Assembly: GCF_000702165.1 (NCBI RefSeq)
Contig: NZ_JNKU01000033.1
Location: 1 to 32,697 of the forward strand
Source: Sharpea azabuensis DSM 18934
Lineage (GTDB): Bacteria > Bacillota_I > Bacilli_A > Erysipelotrichales > Coprobacillaceae
Direction: 5' to 3'
Length of the DNA stretch: 32,697 nt
A program made the position numbers and the translations under genes. This document shows positions 21,606 through 28,318 of the stretch, piece by piece (within the stretch, counting starts at the first letter, position 1; each line of letters begins with the position of its first letter). The notes below the pieces were generated by a model. It saw only the letters and a list, made by a program, of their open reading frames with translations. It was not told where the DNA came from and did not search any database.

Positions 21606-22721
21606 ATGAAAAACTTCAAATCGAAACTTATCGCTGGTGTTATGACAACTGCTATGGTATTCTCTAGTGCTGCTGCTTTTGCTCCTGTATATGCTGTTAA
21701 TGGTACAACAACTCAGTTTAAAAAATACTTAAAGGTTGAACAGGGTGCTACTACGCCTACAGCAGGCTTTAAATTCACAGTTGCATCTGGTGATGAAAAA
21801 GCTGCAAGTGATAAAACAAGAAAAATCAATGCTGGTCCTACACCTAATGATGTTGTAGTGGGTGACGCAACTTTCAGCAGTGGATCATCTAAAGATGACA
21901 GTGCAACAGGTGTTACAGCAGATGGTAAACAGATTTTTGTATCAGATGTTACTGTTGACTTTACAAAGGTAGATTTCCCAGCAGCTGGTATTTATCGTTA
22001 TCTTATCACTGAACAAAATCCTACAAGTAGCTACTTCACAAAAGATGATTCAATAAAGGTATTAGATGTATATGTATCAAGAAATGCTCAGCAAGCATTA
22101 GTAATCGATGGTTATGTATTACATGCAGATCCAGATGCAGAGATTACAACAGGTACAAATTTAACAAACAAAGGTAAGAATACTGGTTTCGTAAATGAAT
22201 ATAAATCACATGATTTAGAAATCGTTAAAAAAGCAACTGGTAACCAGGCTAACCCTGATGATGAATTCACTTATACATTAACTATTAATGGCGCAAATCC
22301 TAATACTACACTTGCTGTTGTTACAACTTCAACAGATGATGCAACAAAACAGAACATTGAAACAAATACAGGTAGTGTTACCAAAACTATTAAGTTAAAA
22401 GCTGGTCAGTCATATAAGGTTGTTGGTTTAAATGAAGGTGCTTCATATAATGTTGAAGAAACAGATAAGAATCATTATGAATTAAAGTCTGTAGAAGCAA
22501 TTGGTAATGATACTGTTAATAAAGAAAATGCTTCTGTCGTTAAAGAAAATAAGACTGTTGCCGATGATAGCTTAACTGGCAATGTTACAATTACATTCAA
22601 CAACGATAAGAGTGGTACAGTTCCTACAGGTATCATCTTTGCAGTAGCTCCATTTGCAGTAGGTGCATTTGTTCTTGCAGCATTCATTATTGTAAAGATG
22701 AGAAGAACAGCTAAGCAGTAA
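21606..22721 (+). CDS. Major (backbone) pilin with isopeptide-forming Ig domains, FctA/Spy0128-like
   Basis: 371 residues. A secretion signal (1-30, ending near 'PVYAV') is followed by two Ig-like pilin domains. Each has the Lys/Glu/Asn set of self-forming isopeptide bonds: domain one 'FKKYLKV', 'ITEQN', 'FVNEY'; domain two 'EIVKKATGN', 'NVEETD', 'TFNNDK'. The wall-sorting signal is VPTG at 339-342, followed by a hydrophobic span and a basic tail. A VPTG signal is what the streptococcal T3 backbone pilin uses. AAGGAGG at 21589-21595 and a long leader suggest strong, regulated expression. As first gene next to a SipA-like protein and a class B sortase, it should be the polymerising shaft subunit. 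Confidence 0.88.
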   Translation: MKNFKSKLIAGVMTTAMVFSSAAAFAPVYAVNGTTTQFKKYLKVEQGATTPTAGFKFTVASGDEKAASDKTRKINAGPTPNDVVVGDATFSSGSSKDDSATGVTADGKQIFVSDVTVDFTKVDFPAAGIYRYLITEQNPTSSYFTKDDSIKVLDVYVSRNAQQALVIDGYVLHADPDAEITTGTNLTNKGKNTGFVNEYKSHDLEIVKKATGNQANPDDEFTYTLTINGANPNTTLAVVTTSTDDATKQNIETNTGSVTKTIKLKAGQSYKVVGLNEGASYNVEETDKNHYELKSVEAIGNDTVNKENASVVKENKTVADDSLTGNVTITFNNDKSGTVPTGIIFAVAPFAVGAFVLAAFIIVKMRRTAKQ

Positions 22722-22744
22722 TTATGAATTAAGGGGTGTATGTG

Positions 22745-23239
22745 TTGAAAAGTGATAGTCATAAAACGCTATTAAAATTTGTGATGAAAATTGCACTCTA
22801 TGTACTTGTAGTGGTTGGGATATTTAGCTTTGTGCTAGATATCCAAATCCACTATGGTAACAATATGTATCCAGCAATCAAAGATGGAGATCTTGTTGTG
22901 ACAAATAGGTTAGCACCTATTTCTGTAGAGTCAGCAGTTATTTATAAGCATGGTGGTAAGAAAAGGGTTGGTAGAATCATTGCCAAGGCAGGACAGACTG
23001 TAACGATTACTGGTAAAGGTAAGTTACTGGTGAATAATGTGCAGCCTGCTGAAGAAGTCTTTTATAAGACGGCTAAGGCTGATTCCAGTGTGAAGTATCC
23101 TTATAAGGTACCTAAGGGTTATGTCTTTATCTTGAATGATTATCGTGAGGATATGAATGATAGTAGGACTTATGGTGCTATTAAGGTGAGTGATGTGCAT
23201 GGACCTTTACTTATTTCTATGAGGAGAAGAGGATTTTAA
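22745..23239 (+). CDS. SipA-like pilus assembly protein (signal peptidase I fold without catalytic residues)
   Basis: About 164 residues, one N-terminal membrane anchor, then a type I signal peptidase domain outside the cell. The catalytic Ser motif (G-x-S-M-x-P) reads 'GNNMYP' here, so Ser is Asn. In the Lys motif 'RIIAKAGQTV' the residue before the Arg is Gly instead of Lys. 'LNDYREDMNDSRTYGAI' keeps the late family box. Loss of both catalytic residues is known for GAS SipA, needed for T3 pilus polymerisation as a partner of pilin and sortase rather than as a peptidase. AAGGGGTG at 22731-22738 makes TTG 22745 or GTG 22742 likely starts; GTG 22736 lies inside the ribosome site. Confidence 0.85.
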   Translation: MKSDSHKTLLKFVMKIALYVLVVVGIFSFVLDIQIHYGNNMYPAIKDGDLVVTNRLAPISVESAVIYKHGGKKRVGRIIAKAGQTVTITGKGKLLVNNVQPAEEVFYKTAKADSSVKYPYKVPKGYVFILNDYREDMNDSRTYGAIKVSDVHGPLLISMRRRGF

Positions 23240-23956
23240 ATGTTTGTTGATAATGTTGTTGGACATGTAAATAGAGCATTTGATCGTATTGTTATTGTAA
23301 TAGCAATACTATGCTTTCTCATATGTACATATGCATTAATTGATACGATTCATGTCTACTATCATGCCAATGATAATAGTCTTCTTGCTTTTAGACCTGA
23401 TTTTGATAGTGATACAAATAAGTTAGGTAAATTATCGAAGGAATGTGTTGCCTGGGTGAAGGTGAAAAAGACAAAGATTGATTATCCTGTTATGCAAGGG
23501 GAAGATAATTCCAAATATTTGAATATGGATCCCTATGGAGAATATTCCTTGTCTGGAAGTATATTCTTGGATTATCGCAATAATCCCCAGTTTACTGATG
23601 ATTATTCTTTGCTGTATGGTCATCATATGGAACAAGGAGCCATGTTTGGTGCTTTGGATAAATATCTAGAACAAGATTATTTTGATAAGCATAAGGATGG
23701 CTGGTTAAAAACAAAAACAAATAAAAAATATAAAATTAAAATATTTGCGGTACTAGAAAGCCAGGCTACAAACTCCCTCATCTTTTCTCCTACAACAACT
23801 TCAATTACTGAACTCAACCAATATATTACTAAACATGCTAAATACTATGACAATACACCAAGTACAAGTCAAAAAATCATCGCATTATCAACATGTAAAT
23901 ACCCAGATACAGAAGACCGTGTTATTGTATTCGGTCATTTAGAGGAGGCAAAATGA
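23240..23956 (+). CDS. Class B sortase, pilin polymerase type
   Basis: 238 residues. N-terminal membrane anchor (about 16-40), then the sortase barrel. Catalytic set: His128 in 'LYGHHME', Cys219 in 'LSTCKYP' and Arg227 in 'EDRVIVFG'. 'WVKVKKTKIDYPVMQG' and 'SIFLDYRN' are class B markers. Most pilin sortases are class C; class B pilin polymerases are typical of streptococcal FCT-2/FCT-3 islands, where they act with SipA on VPTG-type pilins. The start abuts the SipA-like stop, and the end overlaps the next start as ATGA, so the whole block is coupled. No lid segment is seen. Confidence 0.9.
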   Translation: MFVDNVVGHVNRAFDRIVIVIAILCFLICTYALIDTIHVYYHANDNSLLAFRPDFDSDTNKLGKLSKECVAWVKVKKTKIDYPVMQGEDNSKYLNMDPYGEYSLSGSIFLDYRNNPQFTDDYSLLYGHHMEQGAMFGALDKYLEQDYFDKHKDGWLKTKTNKKYKIKIFAVLESQATNSLIFSPTTTSITELNQYITKHAKYYDNTPSTSQKIIALSTCKYPDTEDRVIVFGHLEEAK

Positions 23957-24528
23957 AAAAAAGATATATCATTCAACTATTTCTTGTCTCTTTGTTCTCA
24001 TTGATACCATTACAAAGTGTTAGTGCAAAAGAAGCAGTATCCATTGAGATACCTGTTGAACTTATGCTAAATAAGCAGCATACACAGGGGCAATTAGAAC
24101 TCAAAGCTACAAGTCCTGATGACTATTTGCCAAGTACTAACCCCATAACTATTAATGGTCAAGGCACGATTACTCTTAACTATACGCATACAGGCACATA
24201 TACCTATCAATTACATCAGCTTACTGGTAATGATTCAGCAATCAAATATGATGCAACTGTATATCATATAACTGTTTTTATTGGTACGGATACGCATGTT
24301 GTCACAATTTATAAAGAAGGCTCTAGCGACAAAGATGCAAAAGCTATCTTCAATAACGTGAAAGATGTACCAAAAACACAAACTACCACAAAAAAGAACA
24401 CAGGCAAAGAAACAAAAACAGGTGATAGTACACCAATAATGTTCTATAGCGTAATGACGATTGTTTCACTTGCTATTGTGTTTATATTATTAATGAGATT
24501 AAAGGAGGACAAAAAATGCATAAAATAA
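23953..24528 (+). CDS. Small ancillary/anchor pilin, FctB-like
   Basis: 191 residues. Signal peptide (1-25, ending 'SVSAKEA'), one pilin isopeptide-linkage-type domain ('GTYTYQLHQLTGNDSAIKYD', then 'YHITVFI' and 'AIFNNV'), a Lys/Thr-rich wall-spanning linker and a sorting signal. That signal reads ETKTGDS (KTG 155-157), lacking the usual Leu-Pro, followed by a hydrophobic span and charged tail. Its size and place after the sortase fit FctB, the base pilin that links the shaft to the wall. The 3' end overlaps the next gene by 13 bases. Confidence 0.8.
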   Translation: MKKRYIIQLFLVSLFSLIPLQSVSAKEAVSIEIPVELMLNKQHTQGQLELKATSPDDYLPSTNPITINGQGTITLNYTHTGTYTYQLHQLTGNDSAIKYDATVYHITVFIGTDTHVVTIYKEGSSDKDAKAIFNNVKDVPKTQTTTKKNTGKETKTGDSTPIMFYSVMTIVSLAIVFILLMRLKEDKKCIK

Positions 24529-27500
24529 AGCATATAAAGTTATTAAGTATTGCTGTTGCATTGGTCTTAGTATTTTCTGTTGTCTTTCCTTTATCTACAC
24601 GTGCAGAAAATGAGTCAAGAGACACATTTATTGCCGAGCAAAGTATTAATGGTACGAAAGTAACTGTTAGTGCTGATCCAGAAGTATTTCCTGAAGGAAC
24701 AACTCTGGAAGTCAAAGAAGTTAACCTAACGCCCAAAGAAGATACTCTTGTTGCCTCACAACAACAAGCAGATCAAAAGAGTATCAAACAAGTTGCCCTT
24801 GATATCACAATGAAGAATAAAGAAGGAGAGGAAATAGAACCTGATACATCCAAAGGTAAGGTCAATATATCCTTTACTAATGATGATATTAAAAGCTATA
24901 CAACTAATGTCTATCACATAGATGATAATCTTAAATTAGAATCTCTTAAGCTTACTAAATCTGATGACACTGTAACTGGTGAAACTACTGGGTTTTCTAC
25001 GTACGTCTTAGATTTTATTGTGGAGAATAAAACATTCTATTATGATGTAACATTAAACAAAGAAATAAATCTAAGTGAAGTGTTAGCTCATTTATTAAAT
25101 GTTGAAGCTTCAAAAATTACAGGTATTTCTAACACTGATAAAGACGGTAAAGCAAGTACAGAATTAGATAAATATGGTAAGCTTCAAAAAAAGATGATAA
25201 ACTTTGGTATCTTACAATTACAACTGAACTACCTAAGAATGGTGGAGGTTTGTATTTTAAAGTAAATTATACAAAAGATGATGCTAATCCAGGCAATGCT
25301 ACAGCAACTTTAAATGTTAAAGTGTATCAACAACCTACATTTAGTGGTGATGCCAGTTGGATTAATGACTATCAAGCATCTAGAGACGATCATACTCATA
25401 CAATAACTCTCACAAAGTACAATGGAACACAAACTGATTTAAGCATCCCAGCAACAGTAAAAATTAATAACGTTGATTATCAAATAGTCTTAAGTGGTGA
25501 TGTTTATAAACATACTGGTATAACATCCATTTCTTTCAATTCATATAAAAGAGATGATGGTACAGTAGTTAGTGTAAAGGCAAGTGATAGTTTAAAAGAA
25601 CTCTTTGCGTATTGCGTGAACCTAAAAAAGGTAGATCTCAGAGGACTAAATACCGAAAATGTCACTGATATGTCCTATATGTTTGAAGGTGACTATTTTC
25701 TAAAGTATGTTGGCGTATCGGATGACTCAAATCAGGTTATCTTTAGTGGTGATGGCAGTCAATTTACGACAAAAAATGTTGTTACCATGGAAGGCATGTT
25801 TATGAATATGTCAGATGCCTGGCTAAATAAAGTTGGTTTGACAAAACTAGATGTATCTTCATTTGATACCACTAATTTGAAGGAAACAAAATTATTTGCA
25901 GCTTGGAATAGTTATTTAGAAGAGGTGAATTTAAGTTCTTTTAATGGTGCTATTTCAAATGATGCAGCTAATGATGCCAATACGCCATTAAGAGGAAATG
26001 ATGCTTTAACAAAATTAACATTAGGCGAAAATTGGCATGCTAGAGATTATAAAACATATTCTAGTTTAGGTATTGATGGTAACTGGAAATATATTGGTCC
26101 AAATAAGAACTTTAAGAATGTTGTTTTCTCCAATGAAGAAACCAACACAAATTTCTACAAGGACATGGCTGGTATATATGAGAAAACTAATGAAGCACCA
26201 TCTAGTGCTTCAAGACCTCTTTATGTAGCTGATGGTTATGTTAAAGAAGGTAATATGTGGGAAGTTCATACACCACAAAATACTTTCCACGGTTACTGTC
26301 TTGATCACAATCGTTTAGCACCTAGTGGTTATTTTGATAAAGTAGCTATTGAAAAAGATGTAACATCTAATACATCTGATTCAGGAGTTTCAAATTATAT
26401 CATGGATTATCTTGATGAAGGTAATACAGGCTATAAAGAATTAGGAAACAATATGACTGAAGCGTTAATAGCTTTAATCTATTGGAGTGAATATGGTGGA
26501 CATAATGGTCAATATGATCAAGATGATATTTGGCATTTCACTAATGATTATTCATCAGGAATAAGTGCAAAGCTTAAAGCTAAAATAGTAGGTCATACAT
26601 ATAATGATATTCCTGATAAAGAAAAATATAATCTTTACATCTATGTTCCTTCTGAATTGAATTTATCACCAGAGAAAGACCAAATGCAAAACCTATTATC
26701 TATTGAAGGTGCTAATGATCAAGCATATGCAGGTGTGCAAGTAAAGAAAGTAGATAATACTTCTTCAAAAGCTCCTGTTGGTGGTGCAACATTTGCTGTT
26801 TATCATGCAAATGCTGATGGTACAAAAGATACAACAAAAAAGTTTGGTAATGGAGAAGACCATTTAGAATTTACAACAAATAGTGCTGGTATTGGTGGTA
26901 TTTATCGTATGGACCGTACTGTTGGCCTTACTGTTGGTAAGTATATTCTTGAAGAAATTTCAGCACCAACAGGTTATTTGAAAAATAATACATCATTTAT
27001 GTTTGATGTTACTGAATCTGATAACCAAAAAATGATAAGTGTTGGAAATAGTGATGGTGTAATTGTAGATGATATCGAGGATAAATATGTTGGTGGTGGT
27101 ATAACTTTAAAGAAAGTTGATAGTACAAGTGGTAAGCCATTGCCTAATGCAACATTTACTTTATATGAAACAGATAAAAGTGGTAAAATTTTGAATGATG
27201 CAAGTGGTAAACCAGTATATTCTAAAACATATACAACTGATGAAACAGGGGTATTGAAAACAGGGCTAAAGGATCTTGAGATTGGTAAGTATTATATAGT
27301 GAAAGAAACAGCAGCACCTGAAGGATACGATATTAATCAAAAAGGTACAGGTAAACCATATCAATCAGTTGTAATTCACCTGCGTGATGGTGAAAATGAT
27401 CAGTATAAAGATATCGGTGCTATTGAAAATGTACCTCAAACAGTAGAAGTACAACTCTATGCGACAAAAGTATTCGATAAAATATCACTATCTGAAAACA

Positions 27501-28318
27501 AGTTTACTTTTAAACTTTATGATTCCCAGAATAATCTCATTGATACACAGCAGAATGATGATACTGGTAAAGTAACATTCAAGAAGATGACGCTTTCAGC
27601 AGCTGATATGCCTGGTAAAGATTACTATATAGTTGAAGAGGATGAATCAAAGGTCAAACCATCAATTAATGGTCAGACGATTACTTATGACCAACATAAG
27701 GAAGCTGTGAAAGTTTTATTACAAATGAATCCTGATACAGATAAGCTTGAATCAATCGTAAAGTATGACAGTGATGGTGCGATATTTGTTAACAGATTAA
27801 ATGTTAAGTATGATGGAAAACTTAATATACATAAAACTGTTACAAATAGTTCAAAATCTGATGATACTAAGTTTGATTTTAATCTTGAAATACAAAGTCC
27901 ATCTGCTGACCTAGCAGCAAGAGATTTCCATTATACTTTTGATGGGAAAACGGTTTACAAATTTAAGTTTAATAAGATTTCAAGTAAAACAGAAGATAAT
28001 TTGTATCGTTATAAAACACCTGAAGGTACTTTTAAACTTAAAGATCAATCAACACTTCAACTTCTTGATTTACCTGTTGGCGCAAAATATGTAGTTAGTG
28101 AAGAGGAAACAAGAGGTTATATACTTGTAAATTCTGAAAATACTAACGGTACTATAACTGAAAATGTTACAACAGCCAGCTTTACAAACGAAGCGCAATC
28201 TATTATTCCAACAAGCGCAGATACGATGACACATATGTCATTCTGGTTGATTGCATCAGCTAGTGCTATTGTTCTTGTATGGATTTTAAAGAGAAAACTA
28301 AAAGTTTCTAAGAAATAG
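24516..28318 (+). CDS. Thioester adhesin, Cpa-like pilus tip protein, split by a one-base frameshift at an A7 tract
   Basis: Two overlapping frames (24516-25265 and 25193-28318) make one protein of about 1267 residues if the reading shifts at 25187-25193. The first frame has the signal peptide and a domain of unknown type. After the shift come a BspA/DUF285-like region ('VDLRGLNTENVTDMSYMF', 25640-25930) and a thioester domain with Cys in 'FHGYCLDHN' (codon 26297) and Gln in 'YDQDDIWHFT' (codon 26519). Two CnaB domains follow ('VKKVD ... LEEISAPTGY', 'LKKVD ... VKETAAPEGYD'), then two FctA-type domains, a stalk end 'IIPTSAD', a membrane span and a basic tail. Cpa-type thioester proteins bind host surfaces covalently. 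The start follows AAGGAGG. Without the shift only a 249-residue fragment would be made. Confidence 0.85.
25186..25193 (+). other. A7 tract / A AAA AAG slippery heptamer at the adhesin frameshift
   Basis: Seven A at 25186-25192 then G. In the upstream frame the codons are CAA AAA AAG, so 25187-25193 reads A AAA AAG, the dnaX-type -1 slippery sequence. A -1 slip continues as GAT GAT AAA CTT TGG in the long downstream frame. One extra A would fuse the frames as well. Confidence 0.85.

Follow-up and report, generated by a model that had tools for sequence, protein, structure and literature searches.

A Sharpea azabuensis pilus adhesin gene split at an A7 tract, probably through one-base slippage

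The pilus cluster and the break in its adhesin gene

The stretch of DNA analyzed here (the window, 32,697 nucleotides of Sharpea azabuensis DSM 18934) contains an FCT-like pilus cluster in which the genes for an FctA-like pilin, a SipA-like peptidase, a dedicated class B sortase, an FctB-like minor pilin and, in last position, an adhesin (24516-28318) lie side by side (Table 1). The adhesin gene is divided between two reading frames, and the point at which the frame changes is an A7 tract at positions 25186-25192 of the plus strand, followed by a G at 25193. The tract thus sits inside the ORF of a surface gene, and its length sets the reading frame. No Rfam family was found in the window.

Table 1. 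Coordinates of the pilus genes and of the parts of the split adhesin gene in the window.
Feature	Coordinates	Strand	Remarks
Major pilin (FctA-like, DUF7601)	21606..22721	+	
SipA/LepA-like signal peptidase	22736..23239	+	
Class B sortase	23240..23956	+	TIGR03064, 178 bits, above cut-off
Small FctB-like LPXTG-type minor pilin	23953..24528	+	weak match to streptococcal pilin isopeptide domain
Adhesin, 5' part	24516..25265	+	249 aa, comprising signal peptide, N-terminal domain and a 23-residue out-of-frame tail
Adhesin, 3' part (-1 frame)	25181..28318	+	1045 codons without a stop
Putative thioester domain	26213..26743	+	YCLD (Cys codon ~26297), QDDIW, MQNLL (Gln codon ~26687)
C-terminal sorting signal	28205..28318	+	IPTSA, hydrophobic stretch, basic tail

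The 5' part is read in frame 0 from an ATG at 24516, preceded by the ribosome binding site AAAGGAGG, to a stop codon at 25263-25265. A stop just 5' of the A7 tract closes the -1 frame, which then stays open (25181-28318) and encodes DUF285/BspA-type repeats, the putative thioester domain, SpaA domains, FctA-like and DUF7601 domains and the sorting signal. When both frames were aligned to the orthologue from Sharpea porci, the only relative from the same genus in the genome set compared, the 5' part shared 76% identity with the S. porci N-terminus, and the homology ran in frame 0 as far as ...DKYGKLQKK and continued in the -1 frame from KKDDKLWYLTIT... (KKDD on). By this alignment, the 23-residue frame-0 tail is without real homology to the S. 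porci protein; its local score is 20, whereas the two genuine segments score 839 and 291. The preliminary description of this DNA had proposed that a -1 shift at the A7 tract joins the two halves of an adhesin, and with the homology switching frame at the tract, comparison of the encoded proteins confirms the 24516-25265 ORF and the -1 frame as the two parts of a single LPXTG-type pilus adhesin.

The same alignment narrows the frame switch to about 19 nt around the A7 tract. Since the probability of a run of seven or more A residues in a random 19-nt coding interval is about 0.002 (roughly 0.2%), we conclude that the break and the tract are genuinely connected, and an A7 tract at the break is exactly what an ordinary slippage mutation predicts. 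The preliminary description was also correct in placing A AAA AAG in the proper codon phase at the break: the in-phase heptamer A_AAA_AAG occupies 25187-25193, within the frame-0 codons ...CTT CAA AAA AAG ATG ATA AAC. That the phase is correct counts for little (a chance of about 1 in 3), however, because the motif is common in the S. azabuensis genome.

The description of the protein as a Cpa-like thioester adhesin likewise agrees with what was found, in that the required Cys and Gln motifs are present and a thioester domain is likely. The putative thioester Cys and both Gln residues are invariant across three orthologues, and YCLD and MQNLL fit the published definitions of the Cys and Gln motifs, [YFL]C-hydrophobic-polar and hydrophobic-Q-polar-hydrophobic-hydrophobic (PMC4450167, PMC6194298), while the helix motif TQxx-hydrophobic-W is matched by QDDIW/QDLIW without the leading T. 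In a Pfam profile search the adhesin did not reach the TED family PF08341, and an AlphaFold model of the region, built from three sequences only, had a pLDDT of 40 and was too poor to use. As such, the identity is based on motifs and should be read as putative.

The N-terminal domain (window 24516-25190) matched no Pfam or NCBIfam entry and constitutes an undescribed domain across the order: 57 of 315 genomes have long surface proteins that begin with it, and it normally stands in long open frames, mostly of 500-5000 aa (about 90 loci). Elsewhere in the window's genome, a second FctA-type pilus locus lies at C18:31778-36670 beside a 1098-aa surface protein, the gene of which carries an A8 tract eight codons from its end, and a thioester-domain protein recognized by Pfam, the genome's sole TED match, is encoded in an intact frame at C27:27499-27789. 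Other adhesins therefore remain in this genome.

Orthologues of the adhesin gene in related species

S. porci carries a syntenic pilus cluster with an intact adhesin orthologue of 1287 aa counted from its ATG (NZ_VUNM01000042.1). At the site corresponding to the tract, its sequence is AATAAAGATGAT, read AAT AAA GAT GAT, which is in frame and contains neither an A-tract nor the heptamer. An alignment of orthologues at this site had been put forward as a check on the proposed switch, and by that check the site is not conserved. A search for other strains or close copies of the adhesin region retrieved only S. porci from genome contigs and nothing from viral contigs or plasmids.

Across 43 genomes of the family, the N-terminal domain gave four strong matches (E <1e-90), namely S. 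azabuensis, S. porci and two further genomes, G020 and G021, and of these four loci only that of S. porci has an intact adhesin. In G020, which like G021 belongs to another genus of the same family, a transposase gene lies between the two adhesin halves (C1 ~3067000-3068300; L135:3525-4739). Terminal inverted repeats of 14 bp bound the element, and the 8-bp direct repeat TTATTGGT at both junctions marks a target duplication such as IS1595-like elements produce, which makes the element a candidate member of that family. Beyond it, the downstream adhesin part is open for 815 codons. In G021, the adhesin runs into a contig end (C18 start, L155:1-83) bearing an 80-base sequence with a hairpin near the end; this sequence is present at three contig ends of that genome (L155, L161, L162), and the copies diverge beyond it. 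Judging from this contig structure, the G021 adhesin is interrupted by another insertion sequence, probably IS200/IS605-like.

All of these interruptions spare the N-terminal domain, and the downstream part is open wherever it can be seen. The adhesin gene thus appears to have been repeatedly inactivated by different routes, with one related species at the least, and probably a second, affected besides S. azabuensis. The position of the three hits, all within the first third of the gene, may hint at a pattern, although the sample is small. Because the G020 and G021 orthologues are interrupted as well, the adhesin would seem to be dispensable or counter-selected at times. Among the other short-frame loci with the same N-terminal domain there was no A-tract split: the short frames in G085, G102, G067 and G083 are contig ends, that in G305 is due to a run of N, and those in G160 and G208 end at ordinary stops.

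Explanations for the frame change

The background of frameshifts in this genome, a 2.41-Mb draft in 91 contigs, was assessed by scanning for S. porci ORFs that match two frames, comparing sampled stretches of 1.23 Mb of S. azabuensis with 0.81 Mb of S. porci. Among 438 orthologous ORFs (124,320 aa), no gene but the adhesin showed a single frame change, and the remaining cases were multi-lesion pseudogenes or spurious noncoding ORFs. A glycyl-radical-activase-like gene on contig C17 (L051:3961-5676) carries two frame lesions when compared with S. porci, and a gene next to it also appears shifted, the two probably being a decaying pair; a transposase-like gene on contig C24 is another multi-lesion pseudogene.

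We also counted A-runs in the coding sequences of the sampled genome against synonymous shuffles. Runs of A7 were mildly reduced (162 seen versus 262 expected), whereas A8 was found 8 times versus 80 expected and A9-A10 once versus about 36. Altogether, coding A8+ and T8+ runs are depleted by at least about ten-fold in the window's genome, and strongly so in S. porci too. Selection evidently acts against coding runs of eight or more, in keeping with long A-runs being hot spots of mutation; strong depletion of A8+ with only a mild reduction of A7 is as expected if runs of at least eight mutate often. A precedent for such a mutation is the wbeL gene of Vibrio cholerae O1, which is inactivated by slippage from A8 to A7, an event that recurs under phage selection (PMC3441752).

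The preliminary description had named a simple lesion or a base-call error as its null hypothesis, and the two parts fared differently. With a single-lesion break at the tract and an intact gene in S. porci, the simple lesion became the best-supported reading, while the base-call error is disfavored. Homopolymers are the commonest site of indel errors, and a fully open downstream frame is what a sequencing or assembly error in an intact adhesin gene would leave. However, an assembly prone to homopolymer errors would show more frameshifts, and the 438 orthologous ORFs hold no further single-lesion case despite many A6-A7 runs, with the 162 A7 runs of the sampled genes lying in open frames; an error at this one tract is accordingly quite improbable. 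True phase variation, i.e., reversible high-rate ON/OFF switching of the tract maintained by selection, would account for a pilus-cluster surface adhesin being split at a homopolymer with its downstream frame open, in a genome where coding A8+ tracts are rare enough to stand out. It has a parallel in Bifidobacterium breve, the pilin genes of which (bbr_0113 and bbr_1889) switch by replication slippage in G-tracts; mixtures of tract lengths were measured there, and the ON state became enriched in mice (PMC9187656). Those tracts, however, are G10-G11, whereas the one here is a short A7, and the A7 allele of wbeL was not seen to revert, so that any reversion was too rare to detect (PMC3441752). 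The tract is moreover absent from S. porci, and the other short-frame loci with the N-terminal domain, mostly contig ends, include no A-tract split. We therefore regard maintained switching as unlikely, albeit worth keeping in view: of the suggestion that the adhesin is phase-variable, A7 being off and A8 on, the OFF state reached by tract shortening stands as the likeliest account, and the lack of conservation in S. porci speaks against the rest.

Two further explanations would have the A7 tract decoded into full-length adhesin as it stands. In the first, programmed -1 ribosomal frameshifting at A_AAA_AAG would yield the short fragment and the full adhesin in a fixed ratio, as had been suggested by analogy to dnaX. 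The heptamer is correctly phased and the -1 frame is the homologous continuation, and some leakage is plausible given that the best V_VVA_AAG motifs in E. coli shift at about 0.3% without stimulators and at up to about 3.7% with a favorable 3' context (PMC4066793). Nevertheless, the 20 nt upstream of the heptamer contain no AGG, GGA or GAG that could act as a Shine-Dalgarno-like stimulator; downstream folding, modeled as pseudoknot-free structure, was no better than that of shuffled sequences (z -0.59, -0.32 and -0.17); the heptamer is missing from the intact S. porci gene; and the frame-0 tail is non-homologous. The motif is also commonplace: the 962 coding ORFs sampled from this genome hold 91 in-phase copies, below the 150 that synonymous shuffles would give yet amounting to about one per ten genes, and in an AT-rich genome an in-phase A_AAA_AAG is poor ground for calling recoding. 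On its flanks, structure, conservation and motif frequency we rejected programmed frameshifting as very improbable; a trace of full-length adhesin from leaky frameshifting is possible, while a programmed ratio is not supported. The other explanation, also raised in the preliminary description, is transcriptional slippage on the A-run, by which mRNAs of mixed length would give some full-length protein. Such slippage is documented at 20-25% on the A11 run of Citrobacter rodentium tssM (PMC4256274), yet A7 is well below A11 and the ordinary genes of the same genome contain many A7 runs, and we rejected it, the tract being too short, as the least probable of the readings weighed here. Also rejected was an internal restart at 25250 (TTG), with a GGTGGAGG stretch just upstream, since its product would have no signal peptide and would not reach the wall.

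The proposed slippage event and its relation to known systems

Taken together, these findings lead us to read the A7 tract as a genuine, recent one-base slippage lesion, the OFF allele of a gene for the tip or ancillary adhesin of an FCT-like sortase pilus, with a probability of about 0.62. Replication slippage would have shortened a slightly longer A-run by one A; a longer ancestral tract offers the simplest history, its length being deduced from the reading frame only. The last 80% of the adhesin gene would thereby have been put out of frame, and the cell would make a secreted fragment of 249 residues without the sorting signal and the thioester domain. As the adhesin is the last gene, leaving pilin, peptidase, sortase and minor pilin untouched, the shaft would be expected to be assembled without it, as a "bald" pilus. 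The event is presumably recent because the 3' part keeps 1045 codons without a stop. In principle, the tract could slip back, making this the OFF allele of a hypermutable gene; reversion from A7 may nonetheless be poor, as in wbeL, the nearest precedent, and nothing at the Sharpea locus shows reversal.

The slippage lesion would be a familiar type of event, with the added interest that the same gene is broken differently in related species. A tip adhesin that can be removed this cleanly, intact in one orthologue and independently interrupted in two or three, offers a natural comparison for studying its function and for asking whether its loss reflects cultivation drift, escape from immunity or phages, or a reversible switch. 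A bolder proposal, which we consider rather doubtful, is that selection has repeatedly favored switching off the tip adhesin beyond its N-terminal domain, through slippage of the A-tract here and through insertion sequences in the two others. Populations would then alternate between adhesive and bald pili, or export the N-terminal domain alone as a fragment with a function of its own, and this in commensals for which pilus variation is not known. Low-methane sheep harbor abundant Sharpea in the rumen (PMC5069950), and a literature search found no report of pilus variation in the genus.

Similar to the FCT-type pilus of Streptococcus pyogenes (Cpa/FctA/SipA/class B sortase; PMC7900414, PMC3019223), the Sharpea cluster has an FctA-like pilin, a SipA-like peptidase, a class B sortase, a minor pilin and an adhesin bearing thioester motifs. 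It differs from that pilus in that its adhesin is encoded by the last gene, has an additional N-terminal domain and BspA/DUF285 repeats ahead of the thioester motifs, and lacks a Pfam TED match. The heptamer and its codon phase are identical to those of -1 frameshifting of the dnaX and IS type (PMC4066793), but the Sharpea site is without the Shine-Dalgarno stimulator, stem-loop and conservation of those systems. The closest likeness in the kind of mutation is to V. cholerae O1 wbeL, where a one-base loss in a short A-run also kills a gene for a surface structure; wbeL differs in being a Gram-negative LPS biosynthesis gene with a tract conserved in all O1 strains (PMC3441752). In B. breve, as here, a sortase pilus gene of a gut commensal is split at a homopolymer into an ORF with a signal peptide and an ORF with a sorting signal, the downstream frame being open (PMC9187656). 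There, the G10-G11 tract with its proven length mixtures lies in the first pilin gene and silences the whole cluster by polarity (PMC9187656), whereas the Sharpea A7 tract lies in the last gene, so that the adhesin alone would be lost.
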